From a bacterium (GTDB taxonomy: Bacteria; UBP6; JAFGXH01): DNA of 31,918 nucleotides. Below the pieces are notes generated by a model, which had not been told where the DNA came from, searched no databases, and saw only the letters and a program-made list of their open reading frames with translations. Below, piece after piece: positions 3,237-21,593 of this stretch. A program made the position numbers and the translations under genes. Within the stretch, counting starts at the first letter, position 1. Each line of letters starts with the position of its first letter. The stretch covers positions 1 to 31,918 of the forward strand of contig JAMOQH010000152.1 of assembly GCA_027064085.1 (NCBI GenBank). Direction: 5' to 3'.

Positions 3237-5045
3237 TTACTTAATTTTATTTATAAATTCATTAATTTTATCAAGATTAGATGGGTCATCTTCATAAATC
3301 ATACCATTAATATATAAAGAAGGTGTCCCTTGTACTCCAATAGAAATACCTTCTTCTATTTCTTTTTTAATTGTTTTACTGCTTTCTTTATCTGTTGCAC
3401 ACTCTTTGAATTTATCAATGTTTAATTTTAATTCTTGAGCCCATTTTAAAAAATTATTTTCTGTTAATTGGTATTGATTTTTAAATGCTTTGTCATGAAA
3501 TTCCCAAAACTTATTTTGCTTATAAGCACAATATGAAGCAAGTGCAGCAGGAAAAGCCCTTTTATGGAATGATAATGGAAAGAATTTGTATACAATTTTG
3601 ATATTTTTTTCTTTAGCTAATTTTTCAATTATTGGAGCTACTCTAGAGCAATATGGGCATTGAAAGTCTGAAAATACAAAAATTGTATTAATTGCATCTT
3701 TATTGCCAATGATAGGGCTATTTTTGTAATTAATTGTAAATTTAGGAGGTAATAATAATGGATTAACATTATATTTTTTAATTAGCTCTAAGTTCTTCTT
3801 TCTAAAAAATCCATCTACTTTTGATTTCATAATAAATTGTTTTAATTGTTCTTTTACTTGATCAAAAGTTGCACCTCTTAATCTATTTTTATATGCTTCA
3901 TACAGGGTTTTAACTTCTTCTGCTGTTGGTTCTTTAATTTCTTTTTTTATTAGTGCTGCCATATAGTTTTCTGGATTTTCAAACTTATTTTCTTTTGCCT
4001 CTTTTGTAAATATTACATTAACAACATCTGTTTCTGTTATTTTTTTCAACATATTATATGCTTCATTAGCTACTTTATTATTAAATTTTATTGCTAATTC
4101 TGGAACTAATTTATAGAAATCTTTGATAGTGTAAGGTTTTTTATTTAAATATAAAATTACAGTATTTAAGTTTTCTAAGTCAGAGTATTTTATATCCTTA
4201 TCAGATTTTTTATAGTTTTTGTATATTTTATTAAATTCTTTTATGTTTCTTGTATCATTATATGCAACATCATTTAAGAAATATGTAGGGGTTCCTCTTA
4301 CACCAAGTTTTTTTCCTTCTTCCATTTGTTTTAATAATATATTTTTTGTTTCTTCATTAGTTAAACATTCCATAAATTTAGCTTGGTCTAACTTTAACTC
4401 TTGAGCTATAGTCATGTATAGAGAATCTGAAAGCTCATTTTGATTTTTAAATAGTTTATCATGAAATTCCCAAAATCTACCCTGATTAGCCGCACATATT
4501 GAAGCAATAGCTGCGTCTTTTGCATTTTTATGGAATGATAATGGAAAATTCTTAAATACTATTTTGAAATCTTTATTTTTCATAACTTCTCTGTCAAACT
4601 CTTTTGCATACTTAGAACAATATGGGCATTGGAAATCAGAAAATACAACAAGAGTATAAGGAGCGGATTTATCACCTTTAGTTTGCTTTTCATTTTCAAT
4701 AATATTTACTCTTTTTAAAGGTAAAAGTATTTTATAATTAGTGATATTATTTTCTTTTACATAGTTTAGTATTTCTTTTCTTAAGAATTTAGCTCTTTTT
4801 TCACTAAAAGATTCGTCTACTATTTTAGAATATTCCGGATATTTTTTTTTAAGATCTTTAATTTTTACTACTTTATTATCTATAGAATAAAGAGCCGTAT
4901 TTTCGTCATAATATTTTTTATAGATTTGCTTATTTTCTAATTTATTAGTTTTTATAGACTCTTTTTTAGTTATTTTAGAGTTTGTTGATGTACATGATGG
5001 TAGTAACAATAAACTAACGAGTAAGATAATTGATTTTTTTAACAT
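3237..5045 (-). CDS. Lipoprotein with two tandem DsbA-like thioredoxin domains
   Basis: A 602-residue lipoprotein (lipobox LPSC, Cys18) whose two halves are alike. Each half has a helical lead-in (about 50-125 and 295-445) and a DsbA/Com1-like oxidoreductase domain: FSDFQCPYC with CPYC at 140-143 and again at 463-466, the shared segment FPLSFHK, the helical insert with FWEFHDK, and a cis-proline loop (GTP at 251-253 and 573-575). Both active sites are intact, so each could make or isomerise disulfides in periplasmic proteins. Residues about 370-425 resemble the N-terminal helical region of SurA/PpiC-type chaperones. The halves arose by internal duplication. RBS AAGGAGAA precedes the ATG, and lolC/E follows in the operon. 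Single-domain DsbA-like lipoproteins are usual; two in one chain is not. Confidence 0.88.
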   Translation of the reverse strand: MLKKSIILLVSLLLLPSCTSTNSKITKKESIKTNKLENKQIYKKYYDENTALYSIDNKVVKIKDLKKKYPEYSKIVDESFSEKRAKFLRKEILNYVKENNITNYKILLPLKRVNIIENEKQTKGDKSAPYTLVVFSDFQCPYCSKYAKEFDREVMKNKDFKIVFKNFPLSFHKNAKDAAIASICAANQGRFWEFHDKLFKNQNELSDSLYMTIAQELKLDQAKFMECLTNEETKNILLKQMEEGKKLGVRGTPTYFLNDVAYNDTRNIKEFNKIYKNYKKSDKDIKYSDLENLNTVILYLNKKPYTIKDFYKLVPELAIKFNNKVANEAYNMLKKITETDVVNVIFTKEAKENKFENPENYMAALIKKEIKEPTAEEVKTLYEAYKNRLRGATFDQVKEQLKQFIMKSKVDGFFRKKNLELIKKYNVNPLLLPPKFTINYKNSPIIGNKDAINTIFVFSDFQCPYCSRVAPIIEKLAKEKNIKIVYKFFPLSFHKRAFPAALASYCAYKQNKFWEFHDKAFKNQYQLTENNFLKWAQELKLNIDKFKECATDKESSKTIKKEIEEGISIGVQGTPSLYINGMIYEDDPSNLDKINEFINKIK

Positions 5046-5085
5046 TTTATTCTCCTTTATCCGTGTTTAAATAAAATCCTTGCTT

Positions 5086-5114
5086 AATATATATTAAAAA
5101 TGATAATTATTCAA
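5086..5114 (-). promoter_or_regulatory. Promoter of the double-DsbA/LolC operon
   Basis: On the minus strand TTGAAT (5114-5109), 17 bp, TATATT (5091-5086), about 40 nt before the ATG. The -35 box and spacer overlap TGATAAT (5101-5107), which matches one half of a Fur 7-1-7 box; the other half is poor, so iron control is only a possibility. Confidence 0.5.
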
Positions 5115-5155
5115 GTGTTTGGTGTTTTAAATATGGATTAAGGGGAAGTTTCTCT

Positions 5156-5303
5156 GATACTTGTAGACTAGAGGATTAAATGAATATAAATGATAAAACC
5201 CACCCCCTAAAAGCTAAGCAACTAGCTTTTGAACCCCTCCCAAGAGGGAAATTATTTTCAGATATTTGTAGACTAGAGGATTAAATGAATATAAATGATA
5301 AAA
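5156..5303. repeat. 105-bp partial duplication of the start of the radical SAM gene
   Basis: A 43-bp segment at 5156-5198 is repeated at 5261-5303 with one mismatch. The segment contains the ribosome binding site, ATG and first six codons of the following gene. The copies are exactly 105 bp (35 codons) apart, so the first ATG (5180) opens a 34-codon frame that ends in TAA directly before the true ATG at 5285. The 62 bp between copies holds a palindromic element. Confidence 0.9.
5199..5250. repeat. Small palindromic intergenic element
   Basis: AAAAGCTA (5209-5216) and TAGCTTTT (5223-5230) form a perfect 8-bp stem with a 6-nt loop, and CCCTC (5235-5239) with GAGGG (5244-5248) form a second. 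The C-rich strand (CCCACCCCCT, CCCCTCCC) differs sharply from the AT-rich surroundings. This composition is typical of REP/MITE-like repeats found in many bacteria. I see no second copy in the window. Confidence 0.55.
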
Positions 5304-6202
5304 GGTATAGTAGATTTTCGGATTATTTGAAGAAAAAATATGGTAAAAAAATAATAAAAATAAGTTTAAATGCGGGATTTACTTGCCCAAATATAGACGG
5401 GAGCAAAGCTTATGGAGGTTGTATTTATTGCTCAAATAAAGGAAGTGGAGATTTTGCAGGTGTTCCTAGTAATGATTTAGTTACTCAATTTAATAATGTT
5501 AAAGAAAGAATGAGTAAAAAATGGAAAAATGGATTATATTTACCATATTTTCAAGCTTATACTAATACTTATGCTCCTTTAGATGTACTAAAAAAAAAAT
5601 ATGAAGCTGTTTTGTATTTAGATAATGTTATTGGAATTGATATTGCTACTAGACCTGATTGTTTAGAAGATGATTTAGTTGATTATTTAGCTGAAATATC
5701 AAAAACAAAAGAAGTTTGGGTAGAACTAGGGCTTCAATCTATTTATGATGAAACCGCTAGGATAATTAATAGAGGTCATGATTTTAATGAATTTTTAATA
5801 GGTTTAAATAAGCTAAGGGCTAAAAATATCAATGTTTGTGTTCATATTATAAATGGATTACCTAATGAAACAAGAGAAATGATGATGAATACATTAAAAA
5901 AAGTTAATGAACTTGATATTCAGGCAATAAAAATACACTTATTACATGTTTTAAAGGATACTCCTTTGGAAAATATGTACAAAAAAGGTAAGTTTAAAGT
6001 TATGGAAAAAATGGATTATGTAAATTTGGTTGTTGATCAACTTGAAGTACTAAGGCCAGAAATTTTAGTTCAAAGAGTAACGGGTGATGGAGGTAGAGAT
6101 GAGTTGATAGCTCCACTTTGGAGTTTAAAGAAGTTTGAATTATTAAATGAAATAGATTGGGAGTTTTTAAGGCGAAAAACTAAACAAGGATATTATGTGT
6201 AG
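5285..6202 (+). CDS. Radical SAM protein, TIGR01212/YhcC family
   Basis: A 305-residue cytosolic iron-sulfur enzyme. The segment NAGFTCPNIDGS ... GGCIYC supplies Cys34, Cys46 and Cys49; the long CX11CX2C spacing, with the SAM-binding 4Fe-4S cluster at these cysteines, is characteristic of the TIGR01212 family. Further family features are FQAYTNTYAPLDVLKKKYEA, IATRPDCL, WVELGLQSIYDET (radical SAM core strand with the Glu/Gln signature), and HIINGLPNETREMM. The C-terminus QRVTGDGGRDELIAPLW is also typical. The exact substrate of this family is unsettled; a tRNA or other modification role has been proposed. RBS GAGG is 6 nt upstream, inside the duplicated segment. Confidence 0.9.
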   Translation: MNINDKRYSRFSDYLKKKYGKKIIKISLNAGFTCPNIDGSKAYGGCIYCSNKGSGDFAGVPSNDLVTQFNNVKERMSKKWKNGLYLPYFQAYTNTYAPLDVLKKKYEAVLYLDNVIGIDIATRPDCLEDDLVDYLAEISKTKEVWVELGLQSIYDETARIINRGHDFNEFLIGLNKLRAKNINVCVHIINGLPNETREMMMNTLKKVNELDIQAIKIHLLHVLKDTPLENMYKKGKFKVMEKMDYVNLVVDQLEVLRPEILVQRVTGDGGRDELIAPLWSLKKFELLNEIDWEFLRRKTKQGYYV

Positions 6203-6272
6203 GAGGAATTATTCGTTATTTTACATTATTAAATGAACATCGCTGGAAATTTATGATGGGATTAGGTGGAAT

Positions 6273-7148
6273 ATGGATTATATAGGCAATATTTTTAGGC
6301 CTCCATCAGAGGCTAATTCTTTGTTATTACAGATAACAATAGGTTGTAGTCATAATAAATGTACATTTTGTAAGATGTACAAGGATAAACAATTTAAAGT
6401 TAAGTCTTTAAAGACAATAGAAAATGATTTAAAAGAAGTTGCAGTCTATTCTAATCAAATAGAAAAGTTGTTTTTAATGGACGGAGATGCTCTTATTTTG
6501 AAACAGAGTAAGTTAGTTGAAATACTAAATATGATTAATTATTATCTTCCTAATTTAAATAGAATTTCAACTTATGGAAACAGTAGGTCTATATTGTTAA
6601 AATCTGATAAAGAACTTTCTGAATTGAAAAAATTGAAATTAAAAATGGTGTATCATGGAGCTGAATCTGGGTGTGATAATGTATTACAGCGAATAAATAA
6701 AAACTCAACTAGGAGTGATAATATAAATGCAGGAAAAAAGCTAAAAAAAGCAAAGATTATACAATCTGTAATGGTTTTACTTGGTATAGGTGGTAAAAAA
6801 TATAGCCTTGAGCATGCAAAAAATACAGCAACTATGCTTACAGAAATGGACCCCGAGTTTGTAGGGGCATTAACATTAATACTTGTACCAGAAACTGAAT
6901 TGTATAAGAGGTTTATCAATAAAGAATTTATTCTTCCTGATAAGTTTGAATTATTAAAAGAGTTGAAAACAATAATAGAATACTCTGATTTTACTAATTG
7001 TAGATTTTCATCTAATCATGCATCAAATTATTTGCCAGTTAAAATTAATTTACCTGAAAATAAAACAGAAATTTTAACTTTAATTAATAATATTATAATG
7101 CAAAATAATGAGGGGTTGCTGAAACCTGAAAATTTAAGAGGTCTTTAA
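6273..7148 (+). CDS. Radical SAM protein with CX4CX2C motif, function unknown
   Basis: A 291-residue protein beginning with the lead-in FRPPSEANSLLLQITIGC. Cys25, Cys30 and Cys33 (GCSHNKCTFCKMY) give CX4CX2C, one residue longer than the canonical CX3CX2C; this variant occurs in a widespread, poorly characterised Elp3/HemN-like radical SAM family. Downstream are LMDGDAL, a core strand MVYHGAESGCDNVLQRINK and MVLLGIGGKK, all in the order of an Elp3-type barrel. The start has AGGTGGA a few bases upstream. It lies 70 bp after the first radical SAM gene on the same strand and may be cotranscribed. The substrate cannot be read from the sequence. Confidence 0.85.
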   Translation: MDYIGNIFRPPSEANSLLLQITIGCSHNKCTFCKMYKDKQFKVKSLKTIENDLKEVAVYSNQIEKLFLMDGDALILKQSKLVEILNMINYYLPNLNRISTYGNSRSILLKSDKELSELKKLKLKMVYHGAESGCDNVLQRINKNSTRSDNINAGKKLKKAKIIQSVMVLLGIGGKKYSLEHAKNTATMLTEMDPEFVGALTLILVPETELYKRFINKEFILPDKFELLKELKTIIEYSDFTNCRFSSNHASNYLPVKINLPENKTEILTLINNIIMQNNEGLLKPENLRGL

Positions 7149-7180
7149 TTTTTTATTCTAAAAAATAAATAATAAAATAA

Positions 7181-7224
7181 TAAAATAACTAAAAAATAAC
7201 TAAAAAATAACTAAAAATAACTAT
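7181..7224. repeat. Phased A-tract tandem repeat upstream of lon
   Basis: Four copies of an AATAACTAAAA-like unit, with the ACT of successive copies at 7188, 7199, 7210 and 7220, so periods of 11, 11 and 10 bp. The A5-A6 tracts recur once per helical turn immediately before the lon -35 box, a layout expected to bend DNA. Confidence 0.75.
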
Positions 7225-7229
7225 TAATA

Positions 7230-7257
7230 TTGACTTTTTAAATAAAAATACTAATAT
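7230..7257 (+). promoter_or_regulatory. Promoter of lon
   Basis: TTGACT (7230-7235), 16 bp, TAATAT (7252-7257), about 27 nt before the ATG. No CIRCE or other heat-shock operator is recognisable. Confidence 0.55.
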
Positions 7258-7283
7258 ATCCTTATATTATATTTGGAGTTATA

Positions 7284-9611
7284 ATGAGTAAATCGAGAAA
7301 ATTAATATTACCTATGGTTCCTTTAAGAGATTTAATTGTATTTCCATATACTATCTTACCTTTACTTGTTGGAAGAGATAAATCTGTAAAAGCAATTAAA
7401 GAATCTCTTAAAAACTTTGAGAACAAGGTGTTTTTAGTTGCTCAAAAAAACGAAATAGATAATAATCCTTCACCGGAAAACATTTATAAAGTTGGAATAA
7501 TTGCTCAAATTGTTAAAATGATAAAAACAGATAATAATACAATAAAAATCATTGTTGAAGGGATAGAAAGAGCAAAAATTATTAAATATACAAAAACAGA
7601 TGATTATAATGAAGTTGAAATAGAAAAAATTGAAATGAAAAGTAAAGATGAAATAACAGAAAAAGCTTATATTCGTTCTCTTTTAAATACTTTCAATGAA
7701 TATGCCCAATTTAAAGATAATATTCCTTCTGAAATAATAATGTCTGTTAAATCTGTATCAGATCCATCTAAGCTAATCGACATTTTAATTGCAAATCTTG
7801 ATCTTAGATTAAAAGAAAAGCAAAATATACTTGAAATTTTTGATATTATTGAAAGGATGGACAATTTATTAAAATTAATTCGCTCAGAAATTGATATTTT
7901 AAAGTTAGAAAAAAGAATTAATGATGGTGTAAAAGATAAAATAGAGTATACTAGAAAAAAGATGCTTTTAAATGAAAAAATGGAAGTTATTAAAAAGGAG
8001 TTAGGAAATACTGATGATTTTAATGATGAAATTTTAAAAATAAAAAATAAACTAAAAGAAAAAGAACTTCCTGAAGAAGTGAGAGAAAAGGCTTTTGAAG
8101 AATTAAATAAGTTAAAATTTATGTCTCCTATGGTTGCAGAATCTACTGTTATTAAAAATTATTTAGATTGGATTATTGCTATTCCATGGGCAGAAGCAAC
8201 AGATGAAAAAAACACATTATTAGAAGCTGAAAAAATATTAAATGAAGACCATTATGGTATAGAAAAAATAAAAGAAAGAATCTTAGAGTTTTTGGCTGTA
8301 AAAAAATTAACATCTAAGTCAAGGGGGTCAATTCTTTGTTTTGCAGGGCCTCCTGGGGTAGGTAAAACTTCTTTAGCTCGTTCTATTGCAAGAGCAACGG
8401 GGCGAAAATATGTTAAAATTGCATTAGGTGGTTTAAAAGATGAGTCTGAAATAAGAGGACATAGAAAAACATATATTGGAGCAATGCCAGGAAGAATAAT
8501 TCAATCGTTAAAAAAAGCTAAAGTAAATAATCCTGTGTTTTTACTTGATGAAATTGATAAAATTGGTTCGGGTGCCCAAGGAGATCCGTCATCAGCATTG
8601 TTAGAAGTGTTAGACCCCGAGCAAAATGTTGAATTTCAAGATAACTTTATTGGTCTTGATTATGATTTATCCAATGTGTTTTTTATTACAACAGCAAATA
8701 ATCTACAAATGATTCCTCATGTTTTAAGAGATAGATTAGAAATTATTAATTTATCTAGTTATACCGACGAAGAAAAGCTTGAAATAGCTAAAAGATATTT
8801 AGTTAAAAGAGCAAAAGAAGATAATGGCTTAAAAGCTTATAAAATAAAAATAGAAGATTCTGTTTTAAAGAGAATTATTAGAAACTATACCAAAGAATCA
8901 GGGGTTAGAAACTTAGAAAGAGAAATATCTAAGGTGTTTAGAAAAATTGCCAAAAAAGTATTAATGGATGATTTGAGTAAATCTAAACTAATTAAAGTTA
9001 ATACTAAAAACCTAACTGATTATCTAGGAAAAACTAAATTTACTTATGAGAAAAAGGAAAAAACATCTTTAATTGGTGTGGCTTCAGGGCTAGCATGGAC
9101 TTCCGTTGGTGGTGAAATATTAAAAATTGAAGTTATGGTTATTCCCGGCAAAGGGAAAATCCAAATAACAGGTAAATTAGGTGATGTTATGGTAGAGTCT
9201 GCTAAAGCGGCCTTAACTTATGTTAGGTCACAGGCAAAAAAATATGGTTTAGCAGAAGATTTTTATGAAAAAAATGATATTCATATTCATGTTCCAGAAG
9301 GGGCAATTCCTAAAGATGGGCCAAGTGCGGGTATAACTATTTCTACAGCATTATTATCTGCTTTTATTAAAAAGCCTGTTGATAGTTATGTAGCAATGAC
9401 TGGAGAAATTACTTTAAGGGGCTTTGTTTCTCCTATAGGTGGTTTAAAAGAGAAGTTGTTAGCTGCTTATAGAGCCGGGATAAAAAAAGTTATTATTCCA
9501 AGCGAAAATGAGAAAGATTTGGAAGAAATTCCAGAAATTGTTAAAAAATCACTAGAAATTATACCTGTAAAGCAAGTTAATGATGTTTGGAAGATAGCAA
9601 TTTTGAACTAA
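7284..9611 (+). CDS. lon: ATP-dependent Lon protease
   Basis: A 775-residue protein of normal LonA length that degrades misfolded and regulatory proteins in the cytosol as a hexamer. In order: the N-terminal LON substrate-binding domain (from MVPLRDLIVFPYTILPLLVG), a coiled helical region to about 330, the AAA+ domain with Walker A GPPGVGKT (355-362), Walker B FLLDEIDKI and sensor region TTANN, and the C-terminal protease domain with catalytic Ser681 in PKDGPSAG and Lys724 in GGLKEKLLAA. The Ser-Lys spacing of 43 equals that of the E. coli enzyme. All key residues are present. The gene is monocistronic with its own promoter. Confidence 0.97.
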   Translation: MSKSRKLILPMVPLRDLIVFPYTILPLLVGRDKSVKAIKESLKNFENKVFLVAQKNEIDNNPSPENIYKVGIIAQIVKMIKTDNNTIKIIVEGIERAKIIKYTKTDDYNEVEIEKIEMKSKDEITEKAYIRSLLNTFNEYAQFKDNIPSEIIMSVKSVSDPSKLIDILIANLDLRLKEKQNILEIFDIIERMDNLLKLIRSEIDILKLEKRINDGVKDKIEYTRKKMLLNEKMEVIKKELGNTDDFNDEILKIKNKLKEKELPEEVREKAFEELNKLKFMSPMVAESTVIKNYLDWIIAIPWAEATDEKNTLLEAEKILNEDHYGIEKIKERILEFLAVKKLTSKSRGSILCFAGPPGVGKTSLARSIARATGRKYVKIALGGLKDESEIRGHRKTYIGAMPGRIIQSLKKAKVNNPVFLLDEIDKIGSGAQGDPSSALLEVLDPEQNVEFQDNFIGLDYDLSNVFFITTANNLQMIPHVLRDRLEIINLSSYTDEEKLEIAKRYLVKRAKEDNGLKAYKIKIEDSVLKRIIRNYTKESGVRNLEREISKVFRKIAKKVLMDDLSKSKLIKVNTKNLTDYLGKTKFTYEKKEKTSLIGVASGLAWTSVGGEILKIEVMVIPGKGKIQITGKLGDVMVESAKAALTYVRSQAKKYGLAEDFYEKNDIHIHVPEGAIPKDGPSAGITISTALLSAFIKKPVDSYVAMTGEITLRGFVSPIGGLKEKLLAAYRAGIKKVIIPSENEKDLEEIPEIVKKSLEIIPVKQVNDVWKIAILN

Positions 9612-9778: not shown

Positions 9779-10063
9779 ATGGCAGACGAAAAAAAGAATA
9801 AAATAAAAGTAACCTTAACAGAAGAAGTTGCAACGGGTGTATATGCTAACAATGTTATAATAAATTTTAATAACTCTGAATTTATGCTTGATTTTGCATT
9901 ATTTCAACCACAAAACGGTACCAATAAAGTCCAAACAAGGGTTATTATGCATCCTCATAATATTAGAGCATTAATGAATTCATTAGATAAAACTTTAAAA
10001 ATGCATGAAAACAATACCAATAATGTAAGCAATATTAGTAATTTAAATAATACAATACAATGA
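9779..10063 (+). CDS. DUF3467 family protein
   Basis: A 94-residue protein matching the DUF3467 pattern: VYANNVIINFNNSEFMLDFA (residues about 21-40), then a short loop, then VQTRVIMHPHNIRALMNSL and a polar asparagine-rich tail. The fold is expected to be a small beta sandwich; the biochemical function is unknown. It has no signal peptide. The stop codon overlaps the dnaX start (ATGA, 4 nt), so translation of dnaX is probably coupled to it, and it heads the dnaX-ybaB-recR operon. The start follows GAGG 6 nt upstream. Confidence 0.8.
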   Translation: MADEKKNKIKVTLTEEVATGVYANNVIINFNNSEFMLDFALFQPQNGTNKVQTRVIMHPHNIRALMNSLDKTLKMHENNTNNVSNISNLNNTIQ

Positions 10064-11937
10064 CATACCAAGTAATTGCAAGAAAGTGGCGTCCACAAAA
10101 TTTTGATGAGTTGATAGGGCAGTTTCATATATCCAATACCCTCAAAAATGCTATTATGAATGACAGAGTAGGGCATGCTTTTTTATTTACTGGAGTTAGG
10201 GGCGTAGGTAAAACAACAACTGCAAGAATTTTAGCCAAAAGATTAAATTGTGAAAATCCAAAAGATGGTAATCCTTGTAATGAATGTTCTTCTTGTTTAG
10301 ATGTTCAAAAAGGCAAACATATTGATATTATCGAAATTGATGGAGCAAGTAATACAGGTGTGGATGATGTTAAAGTTTTAAGAGAAGCCGCGAAATATTT
10401 ACCATCAAGAGGTAAATATAAAATCTATATCATAGATGAAGTTCATATGCTTTCAGAAAAGGCTTTTAATGCTCTTCTTAAAACACTAGAAGAGCCACCA
10501 CCTCATGTTAAATTTATTTTTGCTACAACAGATCCCCACAAAATACCTATAACAATAAAATCTAGGTGTCAGATATATGATTTTCGCTCAATTTCCTTAG
10601 ATGAAATATTTAATCAATTAAAGTTAATTTTAGATTCAGATAATATTAAATATGAAGAATCTGCATTATACTTAATCTCTAAAAAGGCAGAAGGAAGCAT
10701 GAGAGATGCTCAGTCTTTATTAGAACAAGTCATAGCTTTTGCATCAAATAATATTACAAAACTAGATGTTTTAAACATTTTAGGAGTAACCGATAGTGAT
10801 GCTTTATTTGAAATGACTGAAGCAATTTTAAATAATAGTATAGAAAATATTATTTTACTGATAGATAAGTTAATAAAAACCGGAATAAACTTAGTTCATT
10901 ATTATAAAGAGTTAATAGAGCACTTTCATAACATCTTAGTGGCTAAAAAAGTAAAAGATCCTTACAAAATATTAAAAATGCCTAAATTTGAAATAGAAAG
11001 ATATATAGCTCAATCAAAGAAAACTGATGAAAGCTTTATTAAGCTTTATCAACTCTTAATTGAAGGATTTGATACTTTAAAGGCTAGTCAATTTCAACAA
11101 ATCACATTTGAAATGAATATGATAAAATTGGCGGAATTTAAACCTATAACACCTTTAAGTGATATTTTAAAATTTGTAAATAAATTATCTAAAAGTTTTA
11201 ATGAACAGCCAGATGCTAAAAAGATAGAAATAGATTTATTTGGAATGATTAGGGGAGATAAAAATATAAAGACAGTTGAATCTAAACCTGAAACGCAAAT
11301 AATTCAAAAAGAAGAACCCATTAAAAAAGAACACCGTAGGGATAAGGCGATGCCTTATCCTGAAACGACAAATAATCCTGAAGTGATGCCTTCTGAAACG
11401 CAAATAGTTCAAAAAGAAGAACCCATTAAAAAAGAACACCGTAGGGATAAGGTGATGCCTTATCCTGAAACGACAAATAATCCTGAAGTGATGCCTTATC
11501 CTGAAGAAATTCCTGAAATTATTGATTTTAATTTATATCAAAAATTAGTAAAACCATTTTTTGAACAAGAAGAAGATACTTTACATTATTTTTATCAAAA
11601 TGTAAAAATACCAATTATATATAAAAACAATATTTTAACATTAGAGTATTCTAATGATTCAGAAACAATGTTTAAGTTTCATCCTGATTTCAAAGAAAAA
11701 TATGAAAATTGGCTTAAAAAAAGAATTTCAAAAGAGCTATCCCTAGAAATTAAAATGACTACGATAAGCAAAGAAGATTCTTTTGATGGAATATTACAAA
11801 AGTATAAAAAAGAAGCAGATAAAAGAGAATTAAAAAGTATAAGAAGTTTAGAAGGTGTAAGAAAAGTAGAAGAAGTTTTTAATTTAAAAGTTAAGAAAAT
11901 TATAAGGAGTGATGAAAATGGCAAAAGCAAAGACTAA
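10060..11937 (+). CDS. dnaX: DNA polymerase III subunit gamma/tau
   Basis: A 625-residue clamp-loader ATPase. Residues 1-370 contain Walker A GVRGVGKT (45-52), a zinc module with Cys64, Cys73, Cys76 and Cys79, Walker B DEVH (126-129), and the sensor segment IPITIKSRCQIYDF. The clamp loader opens the beta sliding clamp for the replisome; tau also bridges to the polymerase and helicase. Between about residues 405 and 485 lies a proline- and charge-rich linker made of a 35-residue unit repeated twice (starting ETQIIQKEEP), which holds an in-frame palindromic element; a tau-like C-terminal domain follows to 625. The start overlaps the DUF3467 stop. The end overlaps ybaB by 20 nt. Confidence 0.95.
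   Translation: MTYQVIARKWRPQNFDELIGQFHISNTLKNAIMNDRVGHAFLFTGVRGVGKTTTARILAKRLNCENPKDGNPCNECSSCLDVQKGKHIDIIEIDGASNTGVDDVKVLREAAKYLPSRGKYKIYIIDEVHMLSEKAFNALLKTLEEPPPHVKFIFATTDPHKIPITIKSRCQIYDFRSISLDEIFNQLKLILDSDNIKYEESALYLISKKAEGSMRDAQSLLEQVIAFASNNITKLDVLNILGVTDSDALFEMTEAILNNSIENIILLIDKLIKTGINLVHYYKELIEHFHNILVAKKVKDPYKILKMPKFEIERYIAQSKKTDESFIKLYQLLIEGFDTLKASQFQQITFEMNMIKLAEFKPITPLSDILKFVNKLSKSFNEQPDAKKIEIDLFGMIRGDKNIKTVESKPETQIIQKEEPIKKEHRRDKAMPYPETTNNPEVMPSETQIVQKEEPIKKEHRRDKVMPYPETTNNPEVMPYPEEIPEIIDFNLYQKLVKPFFEQEEDTLHYFYQNVKIPIIYKNNILTLEYSNDSETMFKFHPDFKEKYENWLKKRISKELSLEIKMTTISKEDSFDGILQKYKKEADKRELKSIRSLEGVRKVEEVFNLKVKKIIRSDENGKSKD
11288..11497 (+). repeat. Tandem 105-bp repeat inside dnaX
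   Basis: Two head-to-tail copies, 11288-11392 and 11393-11497, nearly identical, each encoding 35 residues. A shorter motif encoding MPYPE appears three times (11350, 11455 and 11491). Each copy contains the palindrome GGATAAG-N7-CTTATCC (11340-11360 and 11445-11465). The near-identity suggests recent duplication. Confidence 0.92.
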
Positions 11938-18409: not shown

Positions 18410-18572
18410 ATATCCTCCTAATAATTATACACTAACACATAAAATCATTTTTATTATTAGCTTGTCAATAAATTTATGAATTTTTATTGATTTTTATTTA
18501 TTTTACTATAAAATTGAAGTTTTATCGTATTTTATGTTAAAAGTTTTTACGAGCTTGTGTTTAAGAGGGATA

Positions 18573-19973
18573 ATGCATACAAAATTAAGTAATATAGAAG
18601 AATTTGTCAAAATGATTGATGGTAAGTTGATAAATACTTCTCAAAAAGAACTGTCTAATATTAGTGGTATTTCTACAAATTCAAAAGAAATTAAAAAAGG
18701 AGAAATTTTTATTCCATTAATTGGAGAAAAATTTGATGCTCATAATTTTATTGATTCTGCTTTAGAAAAAGGAAGTGGAACTTTATTTATGAAAAATAAA
18801 TATTCGGTTTCTGAAGATAATATTAATAAAGGATATTTTATTGAAGTTGACGATACATTAAGTGCCTTACAGTTACTGGGTAAAAATAACCGTTTACTTA
18901 ACACGGATATGAAAATAATTGGAGTTACTGGTAGTAATGGAAAGACTACAACTAAAGAGATAATGGGAGCTATCCTTAGTAGATTATCAGATGATGTTTT
19001 CATATCAGAAAAAAATTTAAATAATCATATCGGAGTACCGTTAAATTTAATAAAATTAACTGAAAATATAAAGTATTCTGTATTTGAAATGGGTGCAAGT
19101 GCTATGGGAGAAATTGATTTACTGGCATCTTTAGTGCTTCCTGATATTAGTATTATTACAAATATTGCTCCTGCTCATTTAGAAGGTTTTAAAACTATTG
19201 AAAATATATTAAAAACTAAAACTGAAATATTTAAACATACAAAATCAGTTAAAATTGTTAATTATGATAATCAGTATTTAAAGAAATATGCAGATGAAAA
19301 TAAAGATGTTGTTAAATTTGGTTTTGAAAATGGTAGTGATTTACAAATAATAGAGTTAATTACAAGAGCAACACACAAGGTGATGTTTAAATATAAAGGT
19401 AAAAGATATAATTTTGAATCTATATTGCCTGGGGTTCATAATATTTATAATTTACTTGGAGCCTTACTTGCTGTTGAAGCACTTGGTTTTGAAATGCAAG
19501 AGTTAGTAAATATTATTGATAAATTAGATATAGAAATAAGTGGAAGGTTAAAAAAAATAGAATATAAAAATCATATAGTTTATGATGATAGCTACAACTC
19601 AAATCCATTATCTATGAGAGCTGGTATTGAATATTTTTATAAAGATAGCGAAAAAACTGATAAAAAAACTAAAAAAATACTGATTTTAGGTGAAATGAAA
19701 GAACTTGGTGAGCACTCTAAATTTTATCATGAAGATATTGGTAGTTTTTTAAATAATTATAGATTTGATGAGATATTTTTAATTGGTAATGAATCAAAGC
19801 ATATTTTATCAAAACTTGATTTTGGTATTTCGGCAAAATGGTTTTCAAATCTTGATGAATTAATTGATGTAACTATGAATTTATTAACTCACAATGATAA
19901 AAAAGCCTTCTATATTAAAGGCTCAAGAGGAAATAAATTAGATGAAATTATTAAGAAAATAGAGGAGATATAA
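18573..19973 (+). CDS. murF: UDP-N-acetylmuramoyl-tripeptide--D-alanyl-D-alanine ligase
   Basis: A 466-residue cytosolic ligase that adds D-Ala-D-Ala to the UDP-MurNAc-tripeptide. Domain 1 contains GISTNSKEIKKGEIFIPLIG; the ATPase domain has the P-loop VTGSNGKTTTKEI (P-loop about 117-126), then NLNNHIGVPLNL and FEMGASAMGEI, which mark MurF; the C-terminal domain has YDDSYNSNPLSM and ILGEMKELGEHS. The frame extends upstream to 18534, but GAGGG lies 3 nt before the ATG at 18573, whereas 18534 has no ribosome site. A TATAAA at 18507-18512 is a plausible -10 box. The mraY start follows the stop without a gap. Confidence 0.95.
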   Translation: MHTKLSNIEEFVKMIDGKLINTSQKELSNISGISTNSKEIKKGEIFIPLIGEKFDAHNFIDSALEKGSGTLFMKNKYSVSEDNINKGYFIEVDDTLSALQLLGKNNRLLNTDMKIIGVTGSNGKTTTKEIMGAILSRLSDDVFISEKNLNNHIGVPLNLIKLTENIKYSVFEMGASAMGEIDLLASLVLPDISIITNIAPAHLEGFKTIENILKTKTEIFKHTKSVKIVNYDNQYLKKYADENKDVVKFGFENGSDLQIIELITRATHKVMFKYKGKRYNFESILPGVHNIYNLLGALLAVEALGFEMQELVNIIDKLDIEISGRLKKIEYKNHIVYDDSYNSNPLSMRAGIEYFYKDSEKTDKKTKKILILGEMKELGEHSKFYHEDIGSFLNNYRFDEIFLIGNESKHILSKLDFGISAKWFSNLDELIDVTMNLLTHNDKKAFYIKGSRGNKLDEIIKKIEEI

Positions 19974-21593
19974 ATGTTTTATCATCTTTTTGGAAGAGTA
20001 AACAAAAGTTTATTTAGTTTTATTACTTTTAGAGCTTTTATGGCGGCATTAACTGCTCTTTTAATGGCTTACTTTATTTATCCTAGATTTATAAAGTTTT
20101 TGAAAAAAATTGATGCTGGAGAGGCTGCAAAAGAGGATGCTCCTGAAAATCATATGTTAAAGGCAGGAACTCCCACTATGGGGGGAGTTGTAATTGTTTT
20201 TACTATTGTTATTCCTGTATTATTGTGGGCTAGACTGGATAATCTGTATGTTCTATCAGCATTGTTTTTTCTAATGTCATTTTCTTTGATTGGTTTTTTT
20301 GATGACTTAATTAAGTTAAAGTTTAAGAAAAGGAGAGATAAATTTTTAAAAGAAAAGGAGAGTGAGTGGTTTAGTAAAAATGAAGAAGATGATAGTAAAA
20401 TAATGACTGCTGATAATAACAACAAAAGAATGGAGAGTTTTTTAGAATTAGTTTTTGAATTTCTAGGTGAAAAAGTAGATAGAGATACTCTTCAGGAGAA
20501 GGTAATTCACGAAGAGAGAAGAGAGATTTATAAAAAATTAAAAGATGATATTTATAAATTATATTTTATAAGGTCTGCAAAAGAGCAATTAAGTAAAATT
20601 AAGGAAATATGGAAAAATAAAAAGATAAAATTTGAAAATTGGGATAAGTTTTTAGTGTCAAAAGATAAATTTGAGAAGTTAGAGAGTTTTCAAGATGATA
20701 TTATTGATTATTTTGGGGCTAATTTTCAATTTTCCTTTCAGGAAACTAAAAAATTAGATAGTCTTGTAAATAATTGGTTTGAATATATCTCCATGCCTTA
20801 TGCCATGCAGGAATTATCCCGTAGAAAGAGGAAATGGATACAATCCTTTGTTAAAGATGCTAAAACTAGAAGAAATTCATTTAAAGATATTGACGGATTA
20901 AGAGGAAGTTTTAGGCTTGTGCTTGAATTTATAATTTCTGGAGGAATACTATTTTGGTTATTTACTTCTCAAGTTGCTAATACAACATTACAAATACCAT
21001 TTTTCAAGAATTTTACTCCTGATATTGGGGCTGTATATATCTTTTTTGGAATGTTTGTTATTGTATCATTTGCAAATGCTGTGAATCTAACTGATGGGCT
21101 TGATGGTCTAGCGATTGTTCCTATTATGGTTGCAATGGCAACACTGGGTTTGCTTGTTTATATGTCAGGACATAGTATTATTGCAAAGTATTTGCATATT
21201 ACATATATTTCAGGAGTAGGGGAGCTAGCTATTTTTGCTTTAACTGTTACTGCTGCGGGAGTAGGATTTTTATGGTATAACACATATCCTGCACAGATTT
21301 TTATGGGAGATGTTGGTTCACTTGCATTAGGAGCATCGTTTGGTTCACTTTTGGTTATGAGTAAAAATGAACTTATTGGGGTTGTTTTAGGTGGAATATT
21401 TGTAATGGAAGCTTTAAGTGTAATGATTCAGGTAGGAGTTTATAAAACTAAAAAAGTCAGAGTTTTTAAAATGGCGCCTATACATCACCATTTTGAAAAA
21501 ATGGGTCTTCATGAAAATAAAATTATTGTAAGATTTTGGATAGTTGCAATAATTTTAGCATTGATTTCTATAGCTACAATCAAGATTCGTTAA
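19974..21593 (+). CDS. mraY: Phospho-MurNAc-pentapeptide transferase with a large insertion
   Basis: MraY makes lipid I from UDP-MurNAc-pentapeptide and undecaprenyl phosphate in the inner membrane. The family core is intact: KAGTPTMGG (63-71), the Asp-Asp pair in GFFDD (110-111), NLTDGLDGLA (371-380), MGDVGSLALG (444-453) and APIHHHFE (502-508), with about ten transmembrane helices. Typical MraY has about 320-370 residues; this one has 539. The excess is one charged, helical, non-membrane segment at about 119-307, placed in the cytoplasmic loop after GFFDDLIKLK and before DGLRGSFRLVLE, which replaces the usual GLSGKQKL motif. It is translated directly after murF; the rest of the dcw cluster is absent. 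Confidence 0.95.
   Translation: MFYHLFGRVNKSLFSFITFRAFMAALTALLMAYFIYPRFIKFLKKIDAGEAAKEDAPENHMLKAGTPTMGGVVIVFTIVIPVLLWARLDNLYVLSALFFLMSFSLIGFFDDLIKLKFKKRRDKFLKEKESEWFSKNEEDDSKIMTADNNNKRMESFLELVFEFLGEKVDRDTLQEKVIHEERREIYKKLKDDIYKLYFIRSAKEQLSKIKEIWKNKKIKFENWDKFLVSKDKFEKLESFQDDIIDYFGANFQFSFQETKKLDSLVNNWFEYISMPYAMQELSRRKRKWIQSFVKDAKTRRNSFKDIDGLRGSFRLVLEFIISGGILFWLFTSQVANTTLQIPFFKNFTPDIGAVYIFFGMFVIVSFANAVNLTDGLDGLAIVPIMVAMATLGLLVYMSGHSIIAKYLHITYISGVGELAIFALTVTAAGVGFLWYNTYPAQIFMGDVGSLALGASFGSLLVMSKNELIGVVLGGIFVMEALSVMIQVGVYKTKKVRVFKMAPIHHHFEKMGLHENKIIVRFWIVAIILALISIATIKIR

Follow-up and report, generated by a model that had tools for sequence, protein, structure and literature searches.

An MraY with a Conserved, Predicted All-Helical Domain Inserted in Cytoplasmic Loop B

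An MraY encoded in a 31,918-nucleotide contig of a bacterium from phylum UBP6 (the whole stretch analyzed, hereafter the window) almost certainly contains a conserved helical domain of approximately 186 residues, which is inserted in cytoplasmic loop B and leaves the catalytic residues in place. MraY is an essential cell-wall enzyme and an antibiotic target that is nearly uniform across bacteria; MurF makes its substrate and MurG uses its product. The nearest parallel to the insert is the CL9 domain of DPAGT1. Literature searches, in which subscription journals were thinly covered, revealed no report of an MraY that bears a cytoplasmic domain.

Identification of an Inserted Segment in MraY

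The mraY gene (positions 19974–21593, forward strand) encodes a protein of 539 amino acids, which was matched by the TIGR00445 equivalog model with 354.9 bits, above the curated cut-off of 192.05. Both Pfam MraY_sig1 and Glycos_transf_4 also match this product. Since it is the only PF00953 protein found in the window genome (94.7% complete), this MraY should be the enzyme that the cell uses, unless the part of the genome that is missing encodes another. The idea that a second MraY had freed the window copy to decay was rejected, as none was found in the genome.

All catalytic residues that we checked are kept, including D110, D111, K114, N371, D374, D377, D446, and H504–506, as the earlier note had recognized from the motifs. 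The DDD and HHH residues of MraY are thus represented by D110, D111, D446, and H504–506. Based on the alignment, the catalytic aspartates D110–D111 together with K114, L115, and K118 (20301–20327, forward strand) lie immediately before the insert. The NLTDGLDG motif (N371–G378, 21084–21107), D446 (21309–21311), which is the counterpart of the Mg-binding aspartate D265 of Aquifex aeolicus MraY (PMC6606608), and the HHH motif (H504–H506, 21483–21491) follow after it on the same strand.

Sequences of solved MraY proteins align to the window protein as two blocks, with the segment in between. Counted from D111 up to the residue that precedes the conserved G308, the window protein has 197 residues versus 9–11 in 48 ordinary MraY proteins (the aligned subset of the best 80 matches from a contig scan), and about 186 residues have therefore been added. 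The insertion site is the cytoplasmic loop B, between TM3 and TM4. The earlier note had described some 190 extra residues and placed them at residues 119–307; the excess and its place were correct, whereas that range extends by a few residues into the normal loop, and the inserted domain is best assigned to residues 120–302 or so (20331–20879, forward strand), with bounds uncertain by about 5 residues. The normal loop resumes and TM4 begins at G308–R314 (20895–20915, forward strand), as judged by the alignment. In our own alignment, R314 occupies the position of Bacillus subtilis K116, which has been reported to be important for catalysis (PMC5039524). Because 14 of the 48 ordinary MraY proteins also have an arginine at this position, R314 has no particular connection with the insert.

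The segment is charged, with 41 Lys and Arg and 36 Asp and Glu among 183 residues, in addition to five tryptophans and a single proline. It is rich in basic and aromatic residues, its flanks are basic, its GRAVY value is -1.06, and it has no transmembrane-like stretch. Together with the all-helical prediction described below, these features agree with the earlier view of a charged, helical, nonmembrane segment. Its lack of a recognizable motif was also confirmed: searches gave no credible match in Pfam (best E-value = 0.29), NCBIfam (0.032), PHROGs (0.57), or PDB profiles (0.015 over 50 residues), and neither a ligand-binding motif nor a family match was found in the insert. The PDB match, to a "putative zinc protease", was regarded as a chance hit. 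Internal duplication was rejected as an origin of the insert, as mraY is without a long direct repeat.

Conservation and Distribution of the Insert

Two sister genomes, which belong to another genus of the same family, carry the segment at the same place and with the same size, and misassembly was rejected on this ground. Between the window protein and those of the sisters, the insert is 47–49% identical and the cores are 68–70% identical. Between the two sisters, dN/dS was 0.08 for the insert, 0.10 for the N-terminal core, and 0.03 for the C-terminal core (Nei–Gojobori estimates from this one sequence pair), and 26 of 38 nucleotide differences fall at third codon positions (P-value = 1e-5). 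All five tryptophans of the insert are invariant across the three sequences, as in a folded core. The open frame, the place, and the size are kept in another genus and purifying selection is indicated; this comparison, of three sequences within a single family (two being closely related), thus shows the segment to be real and selected, far beyond what chance would give. Two findings had been named in advance as speaking against the segment, namely relatives without it together with signs of misassembly, and a match to a described MraY domain; instead, the close relatives carry it intact, and no such match was found.

We then have to consider how far the insert is distributed. Among 386 genomes searched with an insert profile, convincing matches were detected only in the three carriers, and these were also the only genomes with a match to the insert among 28 searched from the phylum. 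In the 383 other genomes nothing convincing appeared; four of them gave matches of 16–18 bits (E-value = 0.002–0.008) and viral contigs gave none, and occurrence of the insert as a free protein elsewhere was rejected. A TIGR00445 survey of the same genomes revealed no other large loop-B insertion among the readable MraY layouts, matches cut at contig ends being left unjudged, and no other loop-B carrier was recognized among the best 80 matches of the contig scan. As far as the surveyed sequences indicate, the insert is restricted to one bacterial family.

This restriction, as well as divergence of the insert faster than that of the core, would suit the idea that the segment is no functional domain but the product of misassembly, a decaying gene, or an element removed from RNA or protein. 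However, its constant place and size across two genera (three genomes), the low dN/dS and the invariant tryptophans, and the absence of a known-element match, a stop, or a frame break make this idea extremely improbable.

Other long MraY proteins were also observed, in which the profile alignment breaks near positions 103–120. Those at loci L037, L158, L159, and L160 have extra residues after TM4, in the periplasmic TM4–TM5 loop. The proteins of L037, L158, and L159 resemble the window protein in that each is a normal MraY apart from one large insertion, but their insertions follow TM4 and are periplasmic, with a normal loop B, whereas the window insert is cytoplasmic, lies in loop B, and precedes G308 and TM4. 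No obvious sequence likeness was seen between the insertions of these three and the window insert. Open frames of 767–1120 amino acids in other genomes, which were considered as natural MurF-MraY fusions, were rejected because their extra length looks like readthrough of a high-GC frame.

Predicted Structure and Possible Function

An AlphaFold2 model was built from an alignment of 49 sequences. The pLDDT is mostly above 90 in the core and mostly 47–62 in the insert, all of which is modeled as helix. TM3 appears as one helix from residue 91 to residue 143 that runs on into the insert; thus, at low confidence, the segment is predicted to be all-helical and to continue TM3. When the insert was modeled alone without an alignment, the pLDDT was 58 and the helix limits were nearly unchanged, which is mild support only, because the same program and the same sequence were used. 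Foldseek matched the whole model to MraY structures with a TM-score of about 0.9 by target length, as an MraY fold would give, and gave no match for the insert (best E-value = 3.4), a result that carries little information at the low confidence of the modeled insert.

The window protein shares the transmembrane core, catalytic residues, loop order, and sequence family with known MraY structures (A. aeolicus 4J72/5CKR and Escherichia coli 8G01), but differs from them in having a long segment where known MraY proteins have a short loop B. The CL9 loop of DPAGT1, a eukaryotic PNPT of the same superfamily, is likewise a cytoplasmic insertion near the active site; however, CL9 has 52 residues of mixed alpha/beta structure and follows TMH9 (PMC6218659), whereas the window insert is not of the CL9 type, with about 186 residues that are predicted to be all-helical and lie between TM3 and TM4.

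It is highly probable that a catalytically ordinary MraY acquired, within loop B, an all-helical domain that is folded and comprises about 186 residues. A single insertion in the ancestor of a small bacterial family is the simplest account, and selection has kept the domain there. The domain would extend TM3 into the cytoplasm and come back at the start of TM4, and for this reason it would stand on the cleft's side wall, replacing no catalytic residue. The earlier placement in a cytoplasmic loop next to the active site therefore holds for the TM3–TM4 loop.

One possible role for a domain at this place is that of a gating or regulatory lid, which would fold over the cleft and control substrate entry or sense a metabolite, in a manner comparable to CL9 of DPAGT1. 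K114, L115, and K118 of the window protein correspond in the alignment to K121, L122, and K125 of the A. aeolicus enzyme, which form a shallow pocket that is used by capuramycin (PMC6606608); the insert starts right after these residues, and the pocket lies beside the nucleotide site. In DPAGT1, the TMH3-CL3-TMH4 region has been described as a lateral wall of the active site, and CL9 joins in substrate recognition (PMC6218659). On the other hand, the insert contains no ligand-binding motif or family match, the cleft residues are unchanged, and the modeled helix continues TM3 without folding back, albeit at falling confidence. We consider a lid somewhat unlikely.

The same pocket is also relevant to the idea that the domain protects MraY against an inhibitor, for example a phage lysis protein or an antibiotic of the nucleoside class, by covering the site at which it binds. 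The base of the insert adjoins the pocket for the caprolactam of capuramycin (PMC6606608), and the faster divergence of the insert would fit a conflict of this kind, but the pocket residues are kept and dN/dS between the sisters is low, and such protection appears very improbable. A structural role, in which the domain stabilizes MraY, drives its oligomerization, or fixes it to the surface of the membrane, would be compatible with an all-helical (predicted) insert that has basic and aromatic residues and basic flanks, and MraY crystallizes as a dimer (PMC5039524). However, all other MraY proteins manage without the insert and no result points specifically to this role, which is distinctly unlikely.

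We favor docking over a gating or regulatory lid. The insert may serve as a docking module, on which a cytosolic partner in lipid I/II synthesis (MurF, MurG, or the MreB scaffold) would be held beside the cleft; this possibility is put forward tentatively, at somewhat less than an even chance, and the explanation as a whole, the anatomy of the insertion and docking taken together, is offered with the same reserve. The support for this preference is indirect: no catalytic position has changed, the domain is large, soluble, and charged, and for other bacteria there are reports or proposals of a MurF-MraY-MurG complex and of contacts between MreB and each of these three proteins (PMC3187750, PMC4929429). 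In Chlamydia, another study reportedly did not detect the contact between MreB and MraY (PMC4047632). Several observations were counted against docking, including the ordinary MurF and MurG of the carriers, the occurrence of the murF-mraY pair without the insert, and the low-confidence fold. The faster divergence of the insert than of the core would fit a docking surface, and also a loosely constrained domain.

It is unlikely, although conceivable, that this family-specific domain couples the cytosolic and membrane steps of precursor synthesis, such that transfer of the substrate from MurF, or of the product to MurG, would take place on MraY itself. In that case, these bacteria would have, built into one enzyme, a scaffold whose assembly from separate proteins has been proposed for other bacteria. 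It is under discussion whether MraY and MurG work in a single complex with the cytosolic Mur enzymes (PMC4929429). An MraY that naturally bears a cytoplasmic domain next to its cleft would offer a soluble handle on this question, as the isolated insert could be expressed and used as bait. In addition, the protein shows that an insertion of 186 residues is tolerated in loop B, a lateral wall of the active site.

Genomic Context of mraY

The murF gene (18534–19973, forward strand) ends at the base before mraY, as had been noted for the window, and the pair is kept in both sisters, so that murF lies directly upstream of mraY in all three carriers. The window MurF fits an ordinary murF profile from end to end and has no matching novelty, and the MurF and MurG proteins of the carriers have ordinary length and profile fit. 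Another genome of the phylum (G010) encodes an ordinary MraY without the segment, also adjacent to murF, within a canonical-looking cluster that reads ftsI-murE-murF-mraY-murD-ftsW-murG-murC-murB-ddl-ftsQ-ftsA-ftsZ (MraY, MurG, and MurD were matched to families; the other names were given by order, length, and opening sequence). Because this pair occurs without the segment and such pairing is common, the adjacency of murF is no argument for recruitment of a Mur ligase, which the earlier note had suggested with sensing of a regulator as the alternative.

The murG, murD, and mreB genes are located on contigs other than that of mraY, and this is true of murG and murD in all three carriers. A link between loss of the dcw cluster and the insert was considered and rejected as unspecific: in genome G003, which has no insert, murD is likewise on a different contig from mraY, and loss of the cluster thus fails to explain the insert.

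In two carriers (locus L169, positions 5833–8341, and locus L170, positions 3588–6381), murG is found beside the same two genes rather than the usual mur genes. By eye, these encode a protein resembling the metallo-beta-lactamase fold and a protein resembling cyclic-nucleotide-binding proteins. Elsewhere in the window, a dnaX-like gene (10060–11937) contains a tandem duplication (11288–11497), whose two copies of 105 nucleotides are 98% identical and in frame. Finally, positions 3237–5045 encode a 602-residue protein that seems, by eye, to consist of two halves that resemble thioredoxin/DsbA and contain one CPYC motif each.
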